A DNA stretch of 64,000 nt from Frigoribacterium endophyticum (GTDB lineage: Bacteria; Actinomycetota; Actinomycetes; Actinomycetales; Microbacteriaceae): positions 1,051,510-1,115,509 of the forward strand of contig NZ_JAAOYV010000002.1 of the NCBI RefSeq assembly GCF_011759585.1, written 5' to 3'. The translations under genes were made by a program, and so were the position numbers. The notes beneath the pieces are model-generated. The model was given only the letters and a program-made list of their open reading frames with translations, made no database searches and had not been told where the DNA came from. This document shows positions 5,727 through 61,355 of this stretch, piece after piece. Every line of letters begins with the position of its first letter. Position 1 is the first letter of the stretch.

Positions 5727-6761
5727 GTGGAGCTGAGTCGCGTGCTGTCGTCCGTCCGTCGTCGTGCCGCCGGGCGGGGGGCGGGTGCGGGTGCGGGCGG
5801 CGCTGCGGCCGGTGCCGGGTCTCGACCCGCGACTCCCCCCGCCCGCCCCGTCCACGAGCCGCTCGCCACGCGGCTGGTGCTGCCGCGGGCGCTGGCCCCC
5901 GTCTTCCTGCGGCTGACGCGGGCGAACCGCACCTTCACGACCGAGGCCGGGGCCCGGCGCCGCATCCGCGAGCGGTCGCTGCGGCCCGCACCGTACGGGC
6001 CGCCCGCGACGCTGCGCTCGGACGTGCGCGTCGACGTCGAGCAGCGCGGCGGCTGGCCGGTCTACCGCGTCTCGCGCCGCGACGGAGCCTCGGCCGGCAC
6101 CGTCGTCTACGCCCACGGCGGCGGCTGGGTCGGCGAGATCGTGTCGCAGCACTGGCACCTCGCCGCCCAGGTCGCGGCGGAGGTCGGCACCACCGTGCTG
6201 CTGCCGATCTACCCGCTCGTGCCCTTCGGCACCGCCGAGGAGGCGCGGGTCGGCATCACCGACCTGGTCACCTCGGCCGAGGGCCCGGTGGTGCTCGCGG
6301 GGGACTCCGCGGGCGGCCAGATCGCCCTCTCCGCGGCGCAGTCGCTGCGCGACCAGGGCGTCGACGTGGCGCACGTGCTGATGATCTCGCCGGCGCTCGA
6401 CCTCACGTGGAGCAACCCGCGCATCCCCTTCGTGCAGCCGACCGACCCCTGGCTCGGCACGCCCGGCGGGCGCGTGCTCGCGGAGCACTGGCGCGGCTCG
6501 CTCGACCTGCTCGACCCCGTGGTGAGCCCGCTGGCCGGGGAGCTCGCGGGGCTCCCGCCCCTGACGGTCTTCACCGGGACGCGCGACGTGCTCAACCCCG
6601 ACGCCCACCTGCTGCGGACGCGGGCGGCCGCCGCGGGCGTGGCGCTCGACTGGCGCGAGGGGGTCGGCGAGCTGCACGTGTTCCCGCTGCTGCCGACGCG
6701 GGCCGGGCGCGCCGCGCGGGCGCAGATCGTGCGCACGCTGCGCGCGGCGCTGCGCGGCTGA
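5727..6761 (+). CDS. Alpha/beta hydrolase, hormone-sensitive lipase family
   Basis: The protein has 344 residues and starts at a GTG ten bases after the dehydrogenase stop, so it is the third gene of the operon. The oxyanion motif is HGGGW and the nucleophile motif GDSAGG with Ser194. FTGTRDVLNPD and GVGELHVFP supply the expected Asp and His. These are the marks of the HSL (family IV) esterases, which cleave short to medium acyl esters in the cytoplasm. The first about 35 residues are Ala/Gly/Arg-rich and probably disordered. Downstream of a Baeyer-Villiger enzyme, a fitting role would be hydrolysis of the ester product; that is inference from context. Confidence 0.85.
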   Translation: MELSRVLSSVRRRAAGRGAGAGAGGAAAGAGSRPATPPARPVHEPLATRLVLPRALAPVFLRLTRANRTFTTEAGARRRIRERSLRPAPYGPPATLRSDVRVDVEQRGGWPVYRVSRRDGASAGTVVYAHGGGWVGEIVSQHWHLAAQVAAEVGTTVLLPIYPLVPFGTAEEARVGITDLVTSAEGPVVLAGDSAGGQIALSAAQSLRDQGVDVAHVLMISPALDLTWSNPRIPFVQPTDPWLGTPGGRVLAEHWRGSLDLLDPVVSPLAGELAGLPPLTVFTGTRDVLNPDAHLLRTRAAAAGVALDWREGVGELHVFPLLPTRAGRAARAQIVRTLRAALRG

Positions 6762-6777
6762 GCCGCGCGCGGCGCGC

Positions 6778-7754
6778 TCGAGGTGACCCGATCTGGGCCG
6801 TCGCCCGCCCGCAGGGCCCACGACGAGTCGTCTCGATGAGGGCCCGGCGCTGCGCGCCGACCACTCCCCCCACGAGCCACCCGCCTCGGTCAGTTGCTAC
6901 TTTGGGGGCCCCACAGGGCCGCTCGACCCCTCAAATTGGCAACTCACGAGCGAGCACCCATCGAGACGACCCGATCTGGGCCCCAGCCCGCCCGCAGGGC
7001 CCACGACGAGTCGTTTCGATGAGGGCCCGGCGCTGCGCGCCGACCACTCCCCCCACGAGCCACCCGCCTCGGGTGAGTTGCCATTTTGGGGGCCCTACAG
7101 GCCCGCTCAACCCCTCAAATTGGCAACTCACGTTCGCGCCCAGATCGAGATGACCCGATCTGGGCCCCAGCCCGCCCGCAGGGCCCACGACGAGTCGTTT
7201 CGATGAGGGCCCGGCGCTGCGCGCCGACCACTCCCCCCACGAGGCCACCGCCTCTTGTGAGTTGCCACTTTGGGGGCCCCACGACGCTGCTCAGCCCCCC
7301 AAAACGGCAACTCACGAGCCGACACCGATCGAGGTGACCCGATCTGGGCCCCAACCCGCCCGCAGGGCCCACGAAGAGTCGTCTCGAGGAGAGGCCCGGC
7401 GCTGCGCGCCGACCACTCCTCCCACGAGCCACCCGCCTCGGTCAGTTGCCACTTTGGGGGCCCCACAGGGCCGCTCAACCCCTCAAATTGGCAACTCACG
7501 AGCGCGGCGCGCTCGAGGTGCCCCGATCTGGGCCCCAGCCCGCCCGCAGGGCCCACGACGAGTCGTCTCGATGAGGGCCCGGCGCTGCGCGCCGACCACT
7601 CCCCCCACGAGCCACCCGCCTCGGTCAGTTGCCACTTTGGGGGCCCCACAGGGCCGCTCAGCCCCTCAAATTGGCAACTCACGAGCGCGCCCCGATCGAG
7701 GTGACCCGATCTGGGCCCCAGCCCGCCCGCAGGGCCCACGAAGGGTCACCTCGA
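6778..7754. repeat. Tandem array of six related units (about 184 bp period) built from palindromes, non-coding
   Basis: The marker GATCTGGGCC recurs at 6790, 6973, 7157, 7341, 7525 and 7708, spacings of 183 or 184 bases. Each full unit has a hairpin of about 59 bp, a GGCGCTGCGCGCC dyad, and a second imperfect hairpin pairing GAGTTGCCACTTTGGGG with CCTCAAATTGGCAACTC. The whole array is bounded by exact inverted repeats TCGAGGTGACCC (6778-6789) and GGGTCACCTCGA (7743-7754). Arm sequences differ between units, but some changes are matched on the other side (GACGAC/GTCGTC, GGTGAC/GTCACC). The period is not a multiple of three and no ribosome site is seen, so apparent open frames across it are not genes. 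It lies after the hydrolase and before the isocitrate dehydrogenase terminator. Confidence 0.85.
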
Positions 7755-7780
7755 CGAGCACGCCACGACGGCGAACGACG

Positions 7781-7822
7781 CCCCGCACACGGGCCCCGCC
7801 GAAGCGGGGCCCGCGTGCGGGG
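7781..7822 (-). terminator. Terminator of isocitrate dehydrogenase, UUCG tetraloop hairpin
   Basis: Nineteen-base arms (7781-7799 and 7804-7822) pair with one mismatch, which is a G-U wobble in the minus-strand transcript. The loop read in the transcript is C(UUCG)G, the very stable tetraloop. There is no U-tract, as usual in high-GC actinobacteria. It begins 31 bases after the stop codon. Confidence 0.85.
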
Positions 7823-7852
7823 CGCGGCTCGCGCGTCGCGTCGCAGCTACAG

Positions 7853-10063
7853 CTACAGCGTCGCGAGCGCCGCGTTGAACGTCGCCGACGGGCGCATCAC
7901 GGCCGCTGTCTTCTCGGGGTCGGGGTGGAAGTAGCCGCCGATGTCGACCGCCGTGCCCTGGGGCGCGATCAGCTCGTCGACGATCGTCTGCTCCTGCTCG
8001 CCGAGCGAGGCGGCGAGGGCGGCGAACGCCTCCGCCAGCTCCGCGTCGACGGTCTGCGCGGCCAGCTCGTCGGCCCAGTACTTGGCCAGGTAGAAGTGGC
8101 TGCCCCGGTTGTCGATCGAGCCGAGCTTGCGACCGGGCGACTTGTTCTCGGCGAGGAAGGTGCCGGTCGCGCGGTCGAGCGTGTCGGCGAGGATCTGCGC
8201 CCGTGGGTTGTCGGTCACCGTCGCGAGGTGCTCGAAGCTGACCGCCAGGGCCAGGAACTCGCCGAGGCTGTCCCAGCGGAGGTAGTCCTGGTCGACGAGC
8301 TGCTGCACGTGCTTCGGCGCCGAGCCGCCGGCGCCCGTCTCGAACAGGCCGCCGCCGTTGATCAGGGGCACGACCGACAGCATCTTGGCCGAGGTGCCGA
8401 GCTCCATGATCGGGAAGAGGTCGGTGAGGTAGTCACGCAGCACGTTGCCGGTCACGGAGATGGTGTCGGCACCGCGACGGATGCGCTCGAGCGAGAACGC
8501 CATGGCCTCGACCGGCGACAGCACCTCGATCTGCAGCCCGTCGGTGTCGAGCTCCGCCAGGTACGAGCGCACGAGGCCGATCAGCGTGGCGTCGTGGGCG
8601 CGGCTCTCGTCGAGCCAGAACACGGCCGGCGTCGCGCTGGCGCGGGCCCGCGTCACGGCGAGCTTGACCCAGTCGCGGATCGCGACGTCCTTCGTCTGGC
8701 AGGCCCGCCAGATGTCGCCCTCGGCGACCTCGTGCTCGATCAGCGACTCGCCGGCGGCGTTCACCACGCGGATCGTGCCCTCGGCCGGGGCCTGGAAGGT
8801 CTTGTCGTGCGAGCCGTACTCCTCCGCCGCCATGGCCATCAGGCCGACGTTCGGCACCGTGCCCATGGTCGCCGGGTCGAAGGCGCCGTGGGCGCGGCAG
8901 TCGTCGAGCACGGCCTGGTAGATGCCGGCGTAGCTCGAGTCGGGGATCACCGCGAGGGTGTCGTGCTCGGCGCCGTCGGGCCCCCACATGTGGCCCGAGC
9001 TGCGGATCATCGCCGGCATCGAGGCGTCGACGATGACGTCGCTCGGCACGTGCAGGTTGGTGATGCCCTTGTCGGAGTCGACCATGGCCAGGTCGGGGCC
9101 GGAGGCGATGCCGGCCTCGAACGCCGCCCTGATCTCGGCGCCCTGGGGGAGGCGGTCGAGACCCTGCAGGATCGCGTTCAGCCCGTCGGCGGGGTCGAGC
9201 CCGGCGGCGGCCAGCGCCTCGCCGTGCTGCTCGAAGACCTCGGGGAAGAAGGCGCGGATGACGTGGCCGAAGATCAGCGGGTCGGAGACCTTCATCATCG
9301 TCGCCTTGAGGTGCACCGAGAACAGGACGCCCTCGGCCTCGGCCCGGGCGATCTGCGCGGCGAGGAACTCACGGAGCGCGGCGACGTGCAGCACCGTGCC
9401 GTCGACGACCTCGCCCGCGAGCACGGGGATCGACTGACGGAGCACCCGCGTGCTGCCGTCCGCGCCGACGAACTCGATGGTGAGGGTGTCGTCGGCGGGC
9501 ATGACGACCGACTTCTCGTTGCTGCGGAAGTCGTCGACGCCCATCGTGGCGACGTTCGTCGCCGAGTCGCTGCTCCACTCGCCCATGCGGTGCGGGTGGT
9601 TGCGCGCGTACTGCTTGACGCTCGCCGGCGCGCGGCGGTCGGAGTTGCCCTGGCGCAGCACGGGGTTGACGGCGCTGCCCTTGACCTTGTCGTAGCGGGC
9701 CCGCGCCTCCTTCTCGGCGTCGGTCGAGGGGTCGTCGGGGTAGTCGGGCAGGTCGTAGCCCTGCGACTGCAGCTCGCGCACGGCGGCCTTGATCTGCGGG
9801 ATCGAGGCCGAGATGTTCGGCAGCTTGATGATGTTCGCCTCGGGCGTCGTCGCCAGGGCGCCGAGCTCGGCGAGGGCGTCGTCGACGCGCTGCGCCTCGG
9901 TGAGCCGCTCGGGGAACTGGCTGATGATGCGGCCGGCGAGCGAGATGTCGCGGGTCTCGACGTCGACCCCCGCGGTGCTCGCGTACGCCTCGATGACGGG
10001 AAGGAACGAGTAGGTCGCCAGCATCGGCGCCTCGTCGGTGAGCGTGTAGATGATCTTGGCCAT
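7853..10063 (-). CDS. icd: Isocitrate dehydrogenase, NADP-dependent, monomeric type
   Basis: This 736-residue protein begins [13 protein letters not shown] and contains the conserved blocks of the monomeric class: [43 protein letters not shown] and [13 protein letters not shown]. Length matches the family, about 740 residues. It catalyses oxidative decarboxylation of isocitrate to 2-oxoglutarate with NADP in the citric acid cycle. The monomeric form is the usual isocitrate dehydrogenase of many actinobacteria and is unrelated in length to the dimeric 400-residue type. The gene stands alone, ends at a strong hairpin, and has about 210 bases of upstream space. GGGAG lies nine bases before the ATG. 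Confidence 0.97.
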
Positions 10064-15960: not shown

Positions 15961-16434
15961 GTGACCGACGACCTCCTGCCGCCGACCCCCGCCAACCACC
16001 CCGACTCGATCAAGAAGCTCGCAGCGACGCTCCGGCGGCTCGACGAGGCGCACCGTCGCTACCGGGTGCACGCCGCGAAGGTGGTCGGCATGGCCCCGAC
16101 CGACCTCTCCGCCCTGCTCGTCGTGAGCGAGAACCCCGGCATCACCCCCGGCGCCCTCGCGAAGGAGCTCGTGCTCAGCACCGGCACGGTGACCGCCGTC
16201 GTCGACCGCCTCGAGGCGTCCGGCCGAGTGGCCCGGGTGGCCCACCCGGGCGACCGGCGCAGCCTCCACCTGCAGCTCACCGAGCAGGGCACCCAGATCG
16301 CCTCCGCGCTCGACGAGGCCTACTGGTACGTGCTGTCGACCACCGGCACCGACGAGACCATCGCGGGGGCGCTGCCCCAGCTCGACGGCATCACCGAGGC
16401 GCTCGACGCCGTCGCGAGCGAGGCCGTGGGCTGA
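15961..16434 (+). CDS. MarR-family transcriptional regulator
   Basis: This 157-residue protein starts at a GTG with GGGAG eight bases upstream. The winged helix-turn-helix is complete: LLVVSENPGITPGALAKEL for the recognition region, VLSTGTVTAVVDRLEASG, then the wing with HPGDRRSLHLQLTEQG, where the DxRR motif is the family hallmark. The N- and C-terminal helices would form the dimer. It is divergent from the large surface protein and has no same-strand partner, so it may control that protein or itself. The ligand is unknown. Confidence 0.88.
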   Translation: MTDDLLPPTPANHPDSIKKLAATLRRLDEAHRRYRVHAAKVVGMAPTDLSALLVVSENPGITPGALAKELVLSTGTVTAVVDRLEASGRVARVAHPGDRRSLHLQLTEQGTQIASALDEAYWYVLSTTGTDETIAGALPQLDGITEALDAVASEAVG

Positions 16435-16471: not shown

Positions 16472-16530
16472 TCGAGGTGCCCCGTCCTGGGCCCTCCCGG
16501 CTCAGCAGGCCCCAGATCGAGTCACCTCGA
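16472..16530. repeat. Single palindromic element related to the 6.8-7.75 kb array
   Basis: TCGAGGTG at 16472-16479 pairs with CACCTCGA at 16523-16530. Inside, CCTGGGCC and GGCCCCAG pair with a bulge, and GATCGAGTCACC echoes the array's right arm. Same outline and about the same length (59 bp) as one hairpin of the array. It sits between the convergent MarR and hydrolase genes, so it may act as a two-way terminator. Confidence 0.7.
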
Positions 16531-16579: not shown

Positions 16580-17404
16580 TCAGGGCGCGACGAAGGGGGC
16601 GAGCGCCGCGATCCAGGCGTCATGAGCGTCGAGGTGCGCGTCGTGCGAGCCCCCGTCGAGGTCGACCCTGGTCACGGTCCGGCTGTGGGCGACGAAGGCA
16701 TCCTGCTGCTCGGCGGTGAACATGCCGCCCTCCGCCCACACGACGAGCGTGGGTGCCGTGACGCTCTCCCACTCCGCCCAGCGCGGCACCCCGACCGCCT
16801 CGATCGTGGCCTGGAGCACGTCGGCGTCGAATCGCGGGCGCAGCCCGTCGGGCCCCTCCTCGAGGTCGTCGACCCAGGCCCGCTCGAGCGGGCCGTCGCC
16901 GAGCGCGGCGAGCGCGGCCGCCCGGTCGGCGAACGGGACCGCCCACGACCGGAAGAAGTCGCCGAGCGCCCGGTGCGACTCCGGGGTCCCTCCGCCCTGG
17001 TCGCCCTCGAGCAGCACCAGCCGGCGCACGAGGTCGGGGCGTGCCGCCGCGACGAGCATCGCGGTGTGGGCGCCCATCGACTGGCCCACGAGGTCGACCG
17101 GGCCAGCGGCCTCCGCCTCGACGACGCTGACGACGTCGGCCACGAAGGCCCGCCGCGAGAGGTCGACGGGGCGCCGCGTGCTGCGGCCGTGCCCGCGTTG
17201 GTCGACGAGCACCACGCGGCGCCCGACGAGCGCCCGGGCGGTCGGCAGCAGCTCGCGGCCGCTGCCCGCGAGGCCGTGCAGGAGCACGACGGTCGGCTCG
17301 GCGCCCTCCTGCACCGCGTACGCGACGCGGGTGCCGTCGGCGGCCGTCACGGCCGCCTCCCGCAGCTCGCCGGGCTCCGCGGGCTCCGCGGAGGCGGTGG
17401 TCAC
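16580..17404 (-). CDS. Alpha/beta hydrolase
   Basis: This 274-residue protein has the classic fold motifs: VVLLHGLAGSG (oxyanion loop), VLVDQRGHGRS, the nucleophile elbow GQSMGA, an Asp region near VVWAEGG and the C-terminal His in GGSHDAHLD. It resembles small esterases and epoxide-hydrolase relatives with a helical cap between strands. Its GTG start overlaps the stop of the MerR gene (GTGA), so the two are translationally coupled. The MerR protein is therefore likely to control it as well as the divergent SDR gene. Substrate unknown. Confidence 0.85.
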   Translation of the reverse strand: MTTASAEPAEPGELREAAVTAADGTRVAYAVQEGAEPTVVLLHGLAGSGRELLPTARALVGRRVVLVDQRGHGRSTRRPVDLSRRAFVADVVSVVEAEAAGPVDLVGQSMGAHTAMLVAAARPDLVRRLVLLEGDQGGGTPESHRALGDFFRSWAVPFADRAAALAALGDGPLERAWVDDLEEGPDGLRPRFDADVLQATIEAVGVPRWAEWESVTAPTLVVWAEGGMFTAEQQDAFVAHSRTVTRVDLDGGSHDAHLDAHDAWIAALAPFVAP

Positions 17405-18783: not shown

Positions 18784-18845
18784 GGCGGGTCCCCGTCCTC
18801 CTGGGCGGGTCGGCGCCGACCCGCCCAGGAGGACACCGACCCGCC
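18784..18845. repeat. Palindrome of the GTCCTCCTGGGCGGGTC family, copy 1
   Basis: The core 18795-18834 is a perfect 40-bp palindrome with no loop: arm GTCCTCCTGGGCGGGTCGGC and its complement. After a three-base mismatch it extends by GGCGGGTC/GACCCGCC. Partial copies of the left half (GGCGGGTCCGTGTCCTC) precede it at about 18708-18775. It sits between convergent genes (SDR and VOC) and could stop both transcripts. Confidence 0.85.
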
Positions 18846-20554: not shown

Positions 20555-20626
20555 GGTGCGGCGGGTCCCCGTCCTCCTGGGCGGGTCAGCGGCGACCCGC
20601 CCGGGAGGACACCGACCCGCCGCACC
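20555..20626. repeat. Palindrome of the GTCCTCCTGGGCGGGTC family, copy 2
   Basis: GGTGCGGCGGGTC (20555-20567) pairs with GACCCGCCGCACC (20614-20626). The inner arms GTCCTCCTGGGCGGGTC and GACCCGCCCGGGAGGAC pair with one T-G wobble; the loop is AGCGGC. A partial copy precedes it at about 20516-20548. It lies between convergent WYL and signal peptidase genes. Confidence 0.85.
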
Positions 20627-24260: not shown

Positions 24261-24321
24261 GGGTCGAGTGGTCACGATCTGTTCGTCCCCCGCCCCGGGA
24301 GCAGCAGTTCGTGACCACTCG
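24261..24321. repeat. Hairpin after the GH13 gene, related to the array palindromes
   Basis: GTCGAGTGGTCACGA (24261-24275) and its exact complement (24307-24321) flank a 31-base loop. The left arm continues TCTG, and TCGAGNGGTCACGATCTG matches the left edge of the 184-bp units (TCGAGGTGACCCGATCTG) with matched changes on the other arm. It lies 8 bases after the GH13 stop and probably serves as its terminator. Confidence 0.7.
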
Positions 24322-24362
24322 ACGGCCGCGCGCGGGAGGCCCGCGCGTGGTGGACTGGCTCC

Positions 24363-27556: not shown

Positions 27557-27628
27557 GGTGCGGCGGGTTCCCGTCCTCCTGGGCGGGTCGGCGCCGACCC
27601 GCCCAGGAGGACACGGACCCGCCGCACC
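27557..27628. repeat. Palindrome of the GTCCTCCTGGGCGGGTC family, copy 3
   Basis: The core 27573-27612 is the same perfect 40-bp palindrome as at 18795. It is flanked by GGTGCGGCGGGT and its near complement. Partial left-half copies (GTGCGGCGGGTTCCCGTCCTC) recur at about 27474 and 27518. It lies downstream of the reductase gene and upstream of the mannosidase gene, both on the minus strand, so it can end the reductase transcript. Confidence 0.85.
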
Positions 27629-36730: not shown

Positions 36731-37336
36731 CTAGCGCGCGGCTGACGTGCCGGAGTCGGCCCTGCGCGCCGCGGCCAGGGCCTTCCAGAGGTCGTCGGCG
36801 ACGAGGTGCGCCTCGGTGCTGACGACGGGCAGGGGCTCGCGCCCCACGATCTCGAGCACGACCCACCGACCGCCTCGGAGCCGCCGACGGTGGTCGACCG
36901 GCTGCACGCTGACGGTGCCGACGGCGTCGAGCGGCCACTCCTCGGAGCGGGAGCCCCGCCACCGGGCGGAGGCGCGGGGCACCCACCGCAGGCGCGTGGT
37001 CGAGAGTGCGAGCACGCCGGTCAGCCCGGCACCGCCGGTCGGCCGGACGATCTGGGCCGTGGTGCCCCAGACCAGGCGCTCACCCGCATCGACCGGGAGG
37101 CGACGCCACGCCCCCGGGGCCCGCAGGTCGATGACGACGGCGACCAGCGCCAGCAGCCCGAGCACGACTCCGGCGATCAGGGTCATGACCCAGAACCACC
37201 CCCGGTCCCGGTCGTGATCGAGGAGCTGCAGGGCGACGACGCCGGCGAGGACGACCGGCGGCGCGGCACCCCACCACGCCCGCGAGCGCAGGGCTCGCTC
37301 GGAGGGAGAGGCGGGAGGGTCGAGGGCTGCGGCCAT
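36731..37336 (-). CDS. Membrane protein with PH/GRAM-like domain, unknown function
   Basis: This 201-residue protein has two hydrophobic helices (about 24-40 and 49-72) followed by a soluble beta-rich domain (VWGTTAQIVRPTG, GVLALSTTRLRWVPR, RWVVLEIVGREPLPVV). The layout resembles actinobacterial membrane-anchored PH/GRAM proteins. I do not recognise a specific family. It is upstream of the DUF2283 gene on the same strand. Confidence 0.6.
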   Translation of the reverse strand: MAAALDPPASPSERALRSRAWWGAAPPVVLAGVVALQLLDHDRDRGWFWVMTLIAGVVLGLLALVAVVIDLRAPGAWRRLPVDAGERLVWGTTAQIVRPTGGAGLTGVLALSTTRLRWVPRASARWRGSRSEEWPLDAVGTVSVQPVDHRRRLRGGRWVVLEIVGREPLPVVSTEAHLVADDLWKALAAARRADSGTSAAR

Positions 37337-37597: not shown

Positions 37598-37651
37598 GCC
37601 CGAACTGTAGTCAGCTGGTCACGAGCGAGGTCCTCCCCCGGCGGGAAGTAC

Positions 37652-37700
37652 GGTCCAGCATCGCTGATCCCACTCCGGAGTGGATCAGCGATCCTGGACC
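37652..37700. repeat. GATCCACTCC-family palindrome, copy 1
   Basis: GGTCCAGC/ATCGCTGATCC/C/ACTCC pairs with GGAGTGGATCAGCGAT/C/CTGGACC, with one bulge and one mismatch; arms are about 24 bases. The left flank CGGGAAGTACGG is shared with copy 2. It lies between divergent small membrane-protein genes. Confidence 0.8.
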
Positions 37701-37812
37701 ACGACTCCCGTCCCTGCCGCAGCGAGGCGAGCTCTCCGACCCACCGACCGCGGCGCTGCGTAGGCTCGCGGCGGGGGGCGAGCTCACTGCCGTGCCCGAG
37801 GGGGGAAGCGCG

Positions 37813-58352: not shown

Positions 58353-61300
58353 TCAGTGGATGACGCGCAAAGATCTACGGGGACGACGCTCCTCTCGAAG
58401 GCGAGCAGATCTAAGGTCGGCTTCGAAATTGTTCATCGCCGAGTTTCGCTGGCTAACAGAGGAGAAGGAATACCTGGCGCCAATCACCCGACGTAGATAC
58501 TGGCGAATCTTGGCGCGTTGTTCTTCGTGAAGTCGGTCATCAGTGACGTAGGCATATCGGGCAAGGCCAGCCAGGAAGGAGGCTGAGAACCAGCTTCTGA
58601 CCGCAGTCTCGCTCAGCTCATCAAGGGAATCCACCCACGCGATGGAACCGCCGGAGTACAGGGTCAATGTGCGAAGCAGGGCAGCCCACTCCCCCAGTGG
58701 CACTGATTCCGCGCTGAACTGCGTCAGCAGTCGGTCCAGTGTTGGAGAGCTCAGGCAGTAGCTCAGCCCGCTATACGTGATATATGAAGGCACCACCCGA
58801 AGGAGCGAGTGCATAAACGGAACGAACTCCTTGTCCGGCAAATCGAGCTTGTCGAAAATCGGCCGAACTGCTTCATCGAGCTTTGGCAACGCGGTCAGTT
58901 CTGCTTGATAAAGCTCGAGGAACATCACCCAAGCCTCGAGTAGGCGCCCTAGATAGCGCTGCTTGTGCGCCTGATCGCGGATCTCATCCGAATCCCGCAG
59001 AACGCGGGAGGCAAGGTCGACGACAAGCATCGCTACTCGGGCCGGAGGGAGGTCTTCGATCCGTGCTGCGAGAAACGTAGGCCTGTCCGAGTCGTCCGAC
59101 CGGTCGTAGTAGACAGTTTGTTCCGGGGCACGATCCACGACGTCCTCGAGCGGGGCAGGCTGATCATCCGCTTCGAGAGGCACTGGCTCTCTCAGCAATG
59201 ACTCGGGGGCATCTCTCTTCCGGACGCTCGACAGGATCGATCCCGTAGGGCGCTGCACACTGATCCGGTCGAGCTCGCGTTCGACAACATCGAGGACATC
59301 AGTATCGCTTCGTGCCATGGCCGCATACATGCGAACGATTGACGCAAGTTCCAGGGGCGAGGAAAAGATCAGCTTCTTGAACTCTTCATTGCCTTTGGCA
59401 GCAATGCCAGCGAGCAGCTCCAGATAAATGGACCTCTGGAACCGGATGGTATTTCCGGGCCCTGTGCTGAGAACGCGTCTCTGCTTGAGATCTTCCAGGA
59501 CTACGTCTACTTCGTAAGACCAACCAACCTCATCGAACAACTCCGCGACCCAACCAGCTACTTCCCCGTAGGGCGCCTTGTCTTCGCGTGCCTCAACAAG
59601 TTTGCGGGCAAGGTACTCGATCACCACCCGCTTGTTGCGCAAGCTCATGCGAGGAGAGGAAGTCACTCGCGGGAAATCTCCAAAAAGCAGCAAATTCAGG
59701 TATTCATCGAGGACGGACATCTCCGAGTCCTGGTTTTTCAGCGTTTTTCCGCTGTTCAAGAGCTCCATCAGCAGCGTGATCGTGAACGGCGTGCGCGGGA
59801 GGTGCTTGTCCCGGATGATCACCATGACAGTGGTTACGAAGCGCGTCTCGCGCCCGGGTGCCACACGTCTGGCAATTTCACCCGCCTCAGCATCACTGAA
59901 CCGACCAAGGTAGACCACGTCCACGTCGTCGATGCCCTCCTCAGCCAGTGCCTTCGCAACCTCTACGGTGTCCGACTGCGAGACGCCCAGCACCTTGAAC
60001 TCAGCAGCGTTCTGGGCGATGTCGGCAATCGTCCGATCGAATCGGCTTGATGATTCGAAGAGCAAATTGTCAACGGCAAGCACTAGCTGCTCCTGACCCT
60101 CGCTCTTGGGCACTCCCCAGTCGGCGTAAATGTTCTGAACGTCTTTTGTGATGGGGTGCGGTCCGGATCCAAAGGCCTTTCGCAGCAGAACTCCGTGCGT
60201 GCCGGGACGGACACGGACTGCCTCGTTGACTGCCCACGAGAGCGCCGTGCTGACCCCACTACTTTCCCCGCCAGCAATGATTAGAACTTTGCCCTTGCTA
60301 ACAATTTCGCCCATGTCGACGGGTTTAATCTGCTTCGACTCAGCTTCGATAACCGTGTTCGTGGCGTACTGGTCGTGCGGCTCCGGTAGGAAGATCGGCG
60401 GCACCACCAGCTCTTCGAAACGCTTCTCATCCAGGACCTCCTTTTCTCGCCAGAGGGTGGAGTTTTCCCGGACTTGTCGGAGAAGTCGCTCTTGCCCCTT
60501 GACGCGTCGGTCCACGTGCTGAACGGAAATCGATTCGGGTGCAAGCGAGGTTAGGAAGCCAGCCAAGTTGTCGTGGTGCTGGCCGTACGCGACATCGGCA
60601 ATGACGTCGAGGTCCGAACCGGGCCGCACTTCATCCGTCCTGCATAGTCTGAAGTGGGAAAAAGCCGCAGTTTGATGAACGTCGGCGAACCTCTTGACTA
60701 GTGGTTCGAAGTTCGGGTCATCGAGACCAGAACCAAATCCGACGAATAGAAAGTGGCGCATTCCAAAAGCCGCGTCCTGAATTGCTTGTGCTGGACTGTT
60801 GTTCACAATGCGGTGGTAATCGACGTCGTTGAAGATGACGCTGTCGGGGTCATTCCACAGTCCGTGGAGGTGACCCACGGCGGTGGAGTTGTGCATGGCT
60901 ATCTCCCGCATCATCGCGGGTTCTTTCCACGTCGCCGAACCACGTCCAAGAGCTTGCTCGAGGACGTCGTCGTAATTCGTCGTGAACAGTGGAGCCCCGA
61001 GAGAGCCGAGGGCATCTGCCACGGCGCTCTGACTGGGCCGAAGTTCGCCGACCGTCGCCGACAGCCAACGGCCGTAGCGGTCATGTACGGCACGCTTCAG
61101 CTCGGTGCGGATATCTGAGGCCAGCGAAAGGAGATCGTCAACGCGTGGGTCGTCTAGAAAAAGCTCCAGCTTGTCGCGCATGAGGCGGCCTCGGCGAGGG
61201 TCCACGTCCTCCACGTGCACAACCCCGTGCTCGAGAAGGCCCAACCATGAACTGGTGGCTGCGTTCGCGGTGAGGGACGAGGTGACGCCGGTGCCGGTCA

Positions 61301-61355
61301 CGATGATGAGCTGCCGACGCTGCACTGCCTCAGCGAGCTTTTGCAAAGCGGTCAT
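58353..61355 (-). CDS. SIR2-domain protein with P-loop NTPase-like region, probable antiphage NADase
   Basis: The protein is 1,000 residues long. Residues 1-290 form a SIR2-like NAD-binding domain: GTGVTSS (21-27), TTNYD (125-129), GHLHG (161-165, catalytic His) and GFGSGLDDPNF (206-216). A P-loop-like GGESSGVST (362-370) has Val in place of the Walker A lysine, and LVLAVDN (424-430) is a Walker B candidate. Helical regions to the C-terminus would be the sensor. SIR2 domains of this size next to STAND-like NTPases deplete NAD on phage infection. GC content is visibly lower than that of the flanking genes, pointing to transfer. A decayed recombinase is adjacent. The ATG at 61355 has only a weak ribosome site. 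Confidence 0.78.
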   Translation of the reverse strand: MTALQKLAEAVQRRQLIIVTGTGVTSSLTANAATSSWLGLLEHGVVHVEDVDPRRGRLMRDKLELFLDDPRVDDLLSLASDIRTELKRAVHDRYGRWLSATVGELRPSQSAVADALGSLGAPLFTTNYDDVLEQALGRGSATWKEPAMMREIAMHNSTAVGHLHGLWNDPDSVIFNDVDYHRIVNNSPAQAIQDAAFGMRHFLFVGFGSGLDDPNFEPLVKRFADVHQTAAFSHFRLCRTDEVRPGSDLDVIADVAYGQHHDNLAGFLTSLAPESISVQHVDRRVKGQERLLRQVRENSTLWREKEVLDEKRFEELVVPPIFLPEPHDQYATNTVIEAESKQIKPVDMGEIVSKGKVLIIAGGESSGVSTALSWAVNEAVRVRPGTHGVLLRKAFGSGPHPITKDVQNIYADWGVPKSEGQEQLVLAVDNLLFESSSRFDRTIADIAQNAAEFKVLGVSQSDTVEVAKALAEEGIDDVDVVYLGRFSDAEAGEIARRVAPGRETRFVTTVMVIIRDKHLPRTPFTITLLMELLNSGKTLKNQDSEMSVLDEYLNLLLFGDFPRVTSSPRMSLRNKRVVIEYLARKLVEAREDKAPYGEVAGWVAELFDEVGWSYEVDVVLEDLKQRRVLSTGPGNTIRFQRSIYLELLAGIAAKGNEEFKKLIFSSPLELASIVRMYAAMARSDTDVLDVVERELDRISVQRPTGSILSSVRKRDAPESLLREPVPLEADDQPAPLEDVVDRAPEQTVYYDRSDDSDRPTFLAARIEDLPPARVAMLVVDLASRVLRDSDEIRDQAHKQRYLGRLLEAWVMFLELYQAELTALPKLDEAVRPIFDKLDLPDKEFVPFMHSLLRVVPSYITYSGLSYCLSSPTLDRLLTQFSAESVPLGEWAALLRTLTLYSGGSIAWVDSLDELSETAVRSWFSASFLAGLARYAYVTDDRLHEEQRAKIRQYLRRVIGARYSFSSVSQRNSAMNNFEADLRSARLREERRPRRSLRVIH

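Follow-up and report, generated by a model that had tools for sequence, protein, structure and literature searches.

The DNA analysed here (the window) is a stretch of 64,000 nucleotides, corresponding to C2:1051510-1115509 of a Frigoribacterium genome of 3.32 Mb in 6 contigs (G000). An array of palindromes, 977 bp in length (6778-7754), is flanked by the 3' ends of two convergent genes. On its left is an alpha/beta hydrolase gene (Abhydrolase_3, Pfam PF07859; 5727-6761, + strand) and on its right the monomeric isocitrate dehydrogenase gene icd (Pfam PF03971; 7853-10063, - strand). The array is followed, before the end of icd is reached, by a separate GC-rich hairpin (inverted repeat I6, 7771-7832, with 29-nt arms that are 86% complementary), which is probably the icd terminator. 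No T-tract (intrinsic) terminator was found in 6400-8100; high-GC actinobacterial terminators often lack a T tract.

The array is built in the order A-B-A-B-A-B-A-B-A-B-A with a step of 183-184 bp. Each unit consists of a 59-bp palindrome A (beginning TCGAGGTGACCCGATCTGGGCCC...), 52-53 bp, a 59-bp palindrome B (beginning GTCAGTTGCCACTTTGGGGG...) and 13 bp, and five such units are followed by a sixth A. Two covariance models were built, R1 from 31 copies of A and R2 from 13 copies of B. With these, the A copies were placed on the + strand at 6778-6836 (70.8 bits), 6961-7019 (69.3 bits), 7145-7203 (70.4 bits), 7329-7387 (69.1 bits), 7513-7571 (71.8 bits) and, at the array end, 7696-7754 (75.4 bits). 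The B copies, also on the + strand, occupy 6889-6947 (74.4 bits), 7073-7131 (78.1 bits), 7257-7315 (74.1 bits), 7441-7499 (79.7 bits) and 7624-7682 (80.3 bits). The units are nearly symmetric and R1 scores both strands; the third B copy is also matched by R1 on the other strand (30.9 bits).

An initial sequence-only reading of this DNA had described six copies of GATCTGGGCC at 183-184 bp spacing. All six were located (6790, 6973, 7157, 7341, 7525 and 7708; spacing 183, 184, 184, 184 and 183), in agreement with the single array reported by TRF (6767-7741, period 184, 5.3 copies, 89% matches, score 1590), and a seventh copy lies outside the array at 37049. The exactly complementary 12-bp ends ascribed to the array are present, and the two hairpins ascribed to each unit are found in five units (A and B), the sixth consisting of A alone. 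The perfect self-pairing of the last unit holds for the outermost 12 pairs of the last A (by eye), with 16/20 paired over the outer 20, and the perfect pairing proposed for the unit 1 right arm with the unit 2 left arm was overstated, the outer 20 again pairing at 16/20. Moreover, the left arm of unit 2 pairs equally well with the right arm of unit 5, so this is no specific inter-unit pairing. The full units are pairwise 87-95% identical with gaps counted (162-174 identities per pair), and the array itself is thus a local duplication of rather recent date. Since the arms are near copies of one another, compensation among the six units is weak evidence.

The array appears to be non-coding, as judged from its period, which is not a multiple of 3, and from a mechanical ORF list, in which ORFs of up to 203 aa lie fully inside the array and longer ones run out of it. 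Nor is it a CRISPR, as the earlier reading held: the spacers repeat along with the unit, and there are no unique spacers between identical repeats. No Rfam family reached its gathering score within the window, with 3 sub-threshold matches at E <= 1 in 6700-7860.

The same reading had proposed that the rest of the genome be searched for the unit. This search showed that both palindromes are dispersed, with at least 41 more copies of A and 8 more of B. R1 gave at least 92 matches in the genome, and among the matches listed there are 41 places outside the array and 6 inside it; the 26 matches of R2 represent 13 places, 8 outside and 5 inside. Palindrome A has arms of about 23-25 bp and conserved inverted ends (TCGAGGTGACnCG). 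The best dispersed A pair is 85% identical, and this lack of near-identical dispersed copies means that there is no sign of recent movement of A in this genome. The A-B-A order is found again at C2:1419368, likewise with a 183-bp step, and an alignment of 250 columns has 175 identities; a common spacer of the two A-B-A loci was not supported, the likeness of the A-B spacers being not significant (110/1000 shuffles as good). Within the window, a lone palindrome A (16472-16530; R1, 67.8 bits) lies between convergent predicted genes at 15961-16434 (+ strand) and 16580-17404 (- strand), and a model-free scan identified a 59-bp palindrome of a related subfamily (TCGAGTGGTCACG...; 24264-24322) that carries CGAGnnGnCnC at both ends and stands 10 bp past a predicted stop.

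Other features of the window were recorded in passing. A palindrome at 2245-2294 (ACCGACTGATCAAAGAACCACG...), between two convergent predicted genes, looks like a member of a second palindrome class of the genus, in which a motif is repeated about 20 bp apart within each arm; the motifs of this class are of the GAACCCCG or CGCCACGA types. Three similar hairpins with GACCCGCC and AGGAGGAC (18790-18839, 20558-20623 and 27568-27617) are probably terminators, and a 51-bp palindrome between divergent predicted genes (37651-37701) is perhaps an operator. In the genome as a whole, GGAGGCGCGGGTC occurs at 254 places (reversed control, 3) and looks like half of a genus-wide terminator-type hairpin. The segment 56001-62000 is of lower GC content (58-66% vs about 75%), and a 1000-aa ORF at 58353-61355 (- strand), with a SIR2-like domain and partial similarity to ThsA and Dsr1 defence models, is a possible defence gene.

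Palindrome A (R1) was found in 8 of 16 Frigoribacterium genomes and in 0 of the 44 others of the first genome set, while B (R2) was found in 5 of 16 and, weakly, in one genome outside the genus. When R1 was applied across the Microbacteriaceae under stricter filtering, 18 candidates being scored in each genome, matches were obtained in 26 of 299 genomes and 17 of 85 genera, the genome under study included. Twenty of these places were fetched (13 genomes, representing 10 of the 16 other matching genera), and all are palindromes of 58-60 bp. Sixteen pair at 17-22 of 23 positions in a 59-bp frame; the other four (L288, L289, L290 and L299), with lengths of 58 or 60 bp, were judged palindromic by eye. 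The inner arms are lineage-specific, such that five loci of one genome (G084) share ATCTGCGGC or are one base off. The ends are A-like (CGAGnnGnCnC, with exceptions), a resemblance that is partly selection by the search because R1 rewards such ends.

The model-free scan covered the window and seven relatives (eight blocks, 437 kb) and returned 39 palindromes, ordinary terminator-like hairpins included, with none in three simulated 60-kb sequences. CGAGnnGnCnC stands at both ends of 9 of the 39, compared with 101 of 160,000 random windows; since any end motif stands twice in a palindrome, we estimate that the fair chance is nearer 2.5% each, or about 1 of 39. Strong palindromes also occur, though less frequently, in other actinobacterial genera, where the same scan of 76 loci gave 21 in 720 kb, mostly GC-rich and terminator-like by eye. 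R1 gave 4 weak matches at E <= 0.05 on 80 icd loci of other actinobacteria (758 kb), which were taken as chance.

Comparison of the icd-side site in the 16 genomes showed the array in the genome under study alone; in several relatives different palindromes stand near icd. When five such icd-side palindromes were joined into one query, it matched in 16 of 16 genomes (up to 93 matches in one), including all 8 genus genomes without A, which indicates that different species carry different palindrome families. R1 also picks up Q5, a palindrome family of other genus members. A phage or plasmid origin was discarded: viral contigs gave one lone half-site that is not palindromic by eye, and plasmids gave no match to the array. 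Among titles and abstract openings, most subscription journals being beyond reach, no description of such Microbacteriaceae elements was found, which is not proof of absence.

Similar arrays are present in a relative, G003, as would be expected of the mobile palindrome amplifying in tandem that the sequence-only reading had entertained. In 16 stretches of G003, picked among the matches listed, there are 48 A places, and 12 of the 22 A loci seen hold 2-5 copies, most commonly with a step of 104 bp. The A copies of G003 (44 places at 19 loci in the locus table; the four omitted are three single-copy loci and one copy in the L250 array) are 84% identical within an array vs 70% between loci. Turnover between species is evident at a site downstream of an aminotransferase gene (assigned by Pfam; L104), which was compared in all 16 genomes, as species and not as strains. 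A clear A or B is present in 5 of the 16: one B in the genome under study, two B-like copies in G007, one A each in G006 and G011, and five A in G003. In three genomes (G001, G013 and G015) an inverted repeat that is weak (15/20 pairs) and unclassified lies within 150 bp, and the remaining 8 lack a palindrome close to the gene, some of them showing weak ones at a greater distance.

Next, pairing was examined in a cross-species alignment of 55 A copies, comprising 32 from the genome under study, 19 from G003 and 4 from G006; 8 of the 40 own copies were left out, two that are not 59 long and six from multi-copy loci. Pairing cells amounted to 81.2% vs 75.9% in shuffled alignments, and double-changed cells to 97 vs 55.7 +/- 5.7, with 0 of 500 shuffles as high. 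The inner-arm consensus is GTCCTGGG.../...AGGAC in the genome under study vs GAA.../...TTC in G003. A good part of the covariation comes from this difference, and so may reflect few events. Within the genome under study (38 copies of 59 bp) covariation is weak (z of 3.0 for the outer arms, 1.2 for the inner arms and -1.7 for the loop side); the corresponding values within G003 (19 copies) are 1.1, 1.5 and 2.1. The copies seem to have decayed from palindromic masters and not each to be held by strong pairing selection; even so, their ends are better kept than the middle. The selection on structure, RNA or cruciform, that had been suggested from the sequence is half supported: arm changes are compensated between species, but covariation within the one genome is weak. 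It had also been conceded that absence of any other copy, together with absence of significant covariation, would leave only a local duplication; dispersed copies and cross-species covariation were both found. As to the level of structure, mismatches on the sense strand of tandem-context copies gave no clear excess of G.T over A.C (32 vs 24; 31 vs 30 in a second count). Selection at the RNA level was accordingly set aside, and nothing in the sequences favours RNA over DNA.

A source of mobility was sought in the genomes and at the ends of the copies. The RAYT/Y1 transposase (Y1_Tnp, PF01797) is absent from all 16 genus genomes, whereas the same search matches in 5 of 14 genomes used as controls. 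It was also considered that A copies might enclose a captive mobiliser gene; the flanked genes looked at gave no such protein, encoding instead an EamA transporter, an inositol monophosphatase and proteins of the Fapy-glycosylase type and with an HD domain, together with two overlapping frames without a Pfam match. The target-site duplication feature of a MITE or IS-derived element is not consistently present: direct repeats of 4, 5, 6, 7 and 8 bp were found at 0, 1, 0, 1 and 0 of 48 copies. The 7-bp exception, GAGCCGC around the B copy at C2:1468056 (L101 1957-2015; seen by eye), is the lone long one among the 48 and is perhaps a target-site duplication. Among the comparisons listed there is no clean empty/filled pair with exact junctions, the flanks being too diverged.

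The setting of the copies raises the question of whether they are host cis-sites, that is, bidirectional transcription terminators or mRNA 3'-end protectors selected at each gene end. When 40 A and 8 B copies of the genome under study were placed relative to genes (by a codon-usage gene finder, with overlaps of up to 15 bp tolerated), 48 of 48 lay between predicted genes and none inside one, with 19 in convergent, 24 in tandem and 5 in divergent contexts; in the window, 17% of 59-mer positions are intergenic and 17% of those convergent. Tandem-context copies are nearer the upstream stop than the next start in 20 of 24 cases (medians 29 bp vs 142 bp). Likewise, 50 copies of G003 and G006 fall into 29 tandem, 14 convergent and 3 divergent contexts, 2 at an edge and 2 inside predicted ORFs, and 20 of the 29 tandem copies are nearer the stop (median 66 bp). 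This position at gene 3' ends, the excess between convergent genes, the strength of the hairpins and the retention of A in place in another species, at three loci that were compared, are what host cis-sites would display. However, the array region has no T-tract terminator (a point tempered by the habit of high-GC actinobacteria), a separate hairpin already lies between the array and icd, and a GGAGGCGCGG-type hairpin directly follows icd in 10 of 15 relatives (by eye). Furthermore, the L104 gene end dispenses with a nearby palindrome in half of the genomes and has the weak one alone in three more, and G.T mismatches, which RNA pairing would favour, are not clearly above A.C in the sense strand. 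Taken together, these data make host cis-sites a rather unlikely explanation.

Paired sites of a DNA-binding protein, such as a nucleoid or segregation factor, with the 59 bp setting a half-site spacing of about four helical turns, would account for the nearly fixed length (the match spans 59 bases in 39 of the 41 dispersed A copies listed, and 56 and 60 bases in the remaining two) and for ends that are better conserved than the middle. Half-sites are, in addition, not seen alone: a half-site pattern with up to 3 mismatches has 61 of its 62 matches within A/B palindromes (reversed control, 0), so that the palindrome looks like the unit, bearing in mind that strongly changed half-sites would escape the pattern. 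The A family is also denser near the dnaA gene (C2:1323345), with 18 of the 38 listed loci (the array counted once) within 400 kb on C2, which is 17% of the genome (P 1.4e-5; on C2 alone P 6e-4; among the matches listed, and with the 400-kb limit chosen after seeing the data). The control repeat GGAGGCGCGGGTC has 96 of its 254 copies on contig C1 vs 5 of the 38 listed A loci. Among the matches listed the Q5 family is similarly denser near dnaA; in G005, 23 of 29 listed places on contig C1 are within 700 kb of it (P 3e-5, assuming a circular 3.4-Mb chromosome and leaving out two places on another contig). Set against protein sites are the eight genus members in which A was not found, all of which match other palindrome families, the post hoc limit of the origin test, and the pairing of the inner arms, which simple half-sites do not need. 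We therefore regard this explanation as improbable. Finally, a mere local tandem duplication of ordinary intergenic sequence, with no wider meaning, would fit the high identity of the units and is contradicted by the dispersed A and B families and by the arrays at more than half of the G003 loci seen, making it very improbable indeed.

The palindromes are dispersed, extragenic, biased towards gene 3' ends, nearly fixed in length, patchy among species and lineage-specific in their inner arms, and a relative has several loci at which they stand in tandem arrays; mobility, an enzyme and exchange are what we infer. The reading that we favour, and hold to be rather probable, is that a REP-like 59-bp intergenic DNA palindrome, dispersed in trans and amplified by unequal exchange, has two subfamilies, A and B, which together make up a BIME-like cluster in the array. 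New copies would be made by a hairpin-recognising activity acting in trans, other than a known RAYT, for which the conserved inverted ends may be the recognition signal. Where two copies come to lie close together (A-B-A, as at C2:1419368), unequal exchange could multiply the unit and mix the arms, and would in this way have produced the present array. The structure would probably be read as DNA, as a cruciform or as a single-strand hairpin of either strand, and not as sense RNA; an effect on the host, if any, would be secondary, as a 3'-end or protein-binding site.

A broader proposal, which we put forward tentatively, is that there is a Microbacteriaceae-wide class of palindromes of about fixed 59-bp length, with CGAGnnGnCnC-type ends and fast-changing self-complementary inner arms, that might be spread and renewed by a non-RAYT hairpin-recognising enzyme and replace one another at the same gene ends. 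If the favoured reading is true, populations like REPs and BIMEs exist in high-GC actinobacteria without the transposase held to make REPs elsewhere, in which case another enzyme or host processes would make the palindromes. The nearly fixed length, the conserved ends and the family differences at orthologous sites would then offer a concrete system for finding the copying activity, and the arrays might be of use as strain markers of the VNTR type.

Several known repeat systems share part of this form. Like the MIRU-VNTR loci of mycobacteria, A and B are dispersed intergenic units found in tandem arrays in an actinobacterium; unlike them, they are near-perfect palindromes, which MIRUs are not known to be. 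Uptake-sequence-like pairs (DUS terminators) have a half-site that is also frequent alone, unlike the half-sites here, nearly all of which lie within palindromes. REPINs are two inverted halves with a loop that act as one unit, and A resembles them in this respect; however, neither half of A is by itself a REP palindrome, and the search for a RAYT found none.

The elements are further like the GTAG and CGTC REPs, as these are presented in PMC3733652, in being dispersed intergenic palindromes that lie mainly between convergent and unidirectional ORFs, as the placed copies do (all extragenic, and mostly in convergent or tandem contexts). They are also like the CGTC REPs, apparently without a dedicated transposase according to the same paper (PMC3733652), in that no RAYT was found. 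They differ in that A is longer than the 20-40 bp given there as the definition of a REP (PMC3733652), is nearly fixed in length, and carries no GTAG and no consistent CGTC tag: within 8 nt of the ends of 38 copies, GTAG and its complement CTAC each occur in 0 of 38, CGTC in 3 on the left and 3 on the right, and GACG in 6 on the left and 1 on the right. The RAYT gene that accompanies GTAG REPs is likewise wanting in all 16 genus genomes. Membership among the REPs was rejected on these tests of length, tag and RAYT, and the element is for this reason called REP-like and not filed as a REP.

The closest counterparts are the BIMEs, so that the statement in the sequence-only reading that no described element has this form was too strong. 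As described in PMC2817692, BIMEs are clusters of regularly spaced REPs, some of them hybrid, in which palindromy is kept, suggesting selection for complementary mutations. The differences are a palindrome of 59 bp here as against 20-40 bp, the failure to find a RAYT gene and the actinobacterial host; the alternation of unit orientation in BIMEs would leave no visible trace in units as nearly symmetric as these. The likeness, on the description in that paper (PMC2817692), is to BIME-2 and the hybrid Stenotrophomonas BIMEs in particular, and extends to regularly spaced short palindromes in extragenic clusters of repeated modules (as in the array and the G003 loci), two palindrome types per cluster, a species-specific sequence with palindromy preserved, and length differences between strains, which are paralleled here, between species, by a copy number of 0, 1, 2 or 5 at a single site across the 16 genomes.
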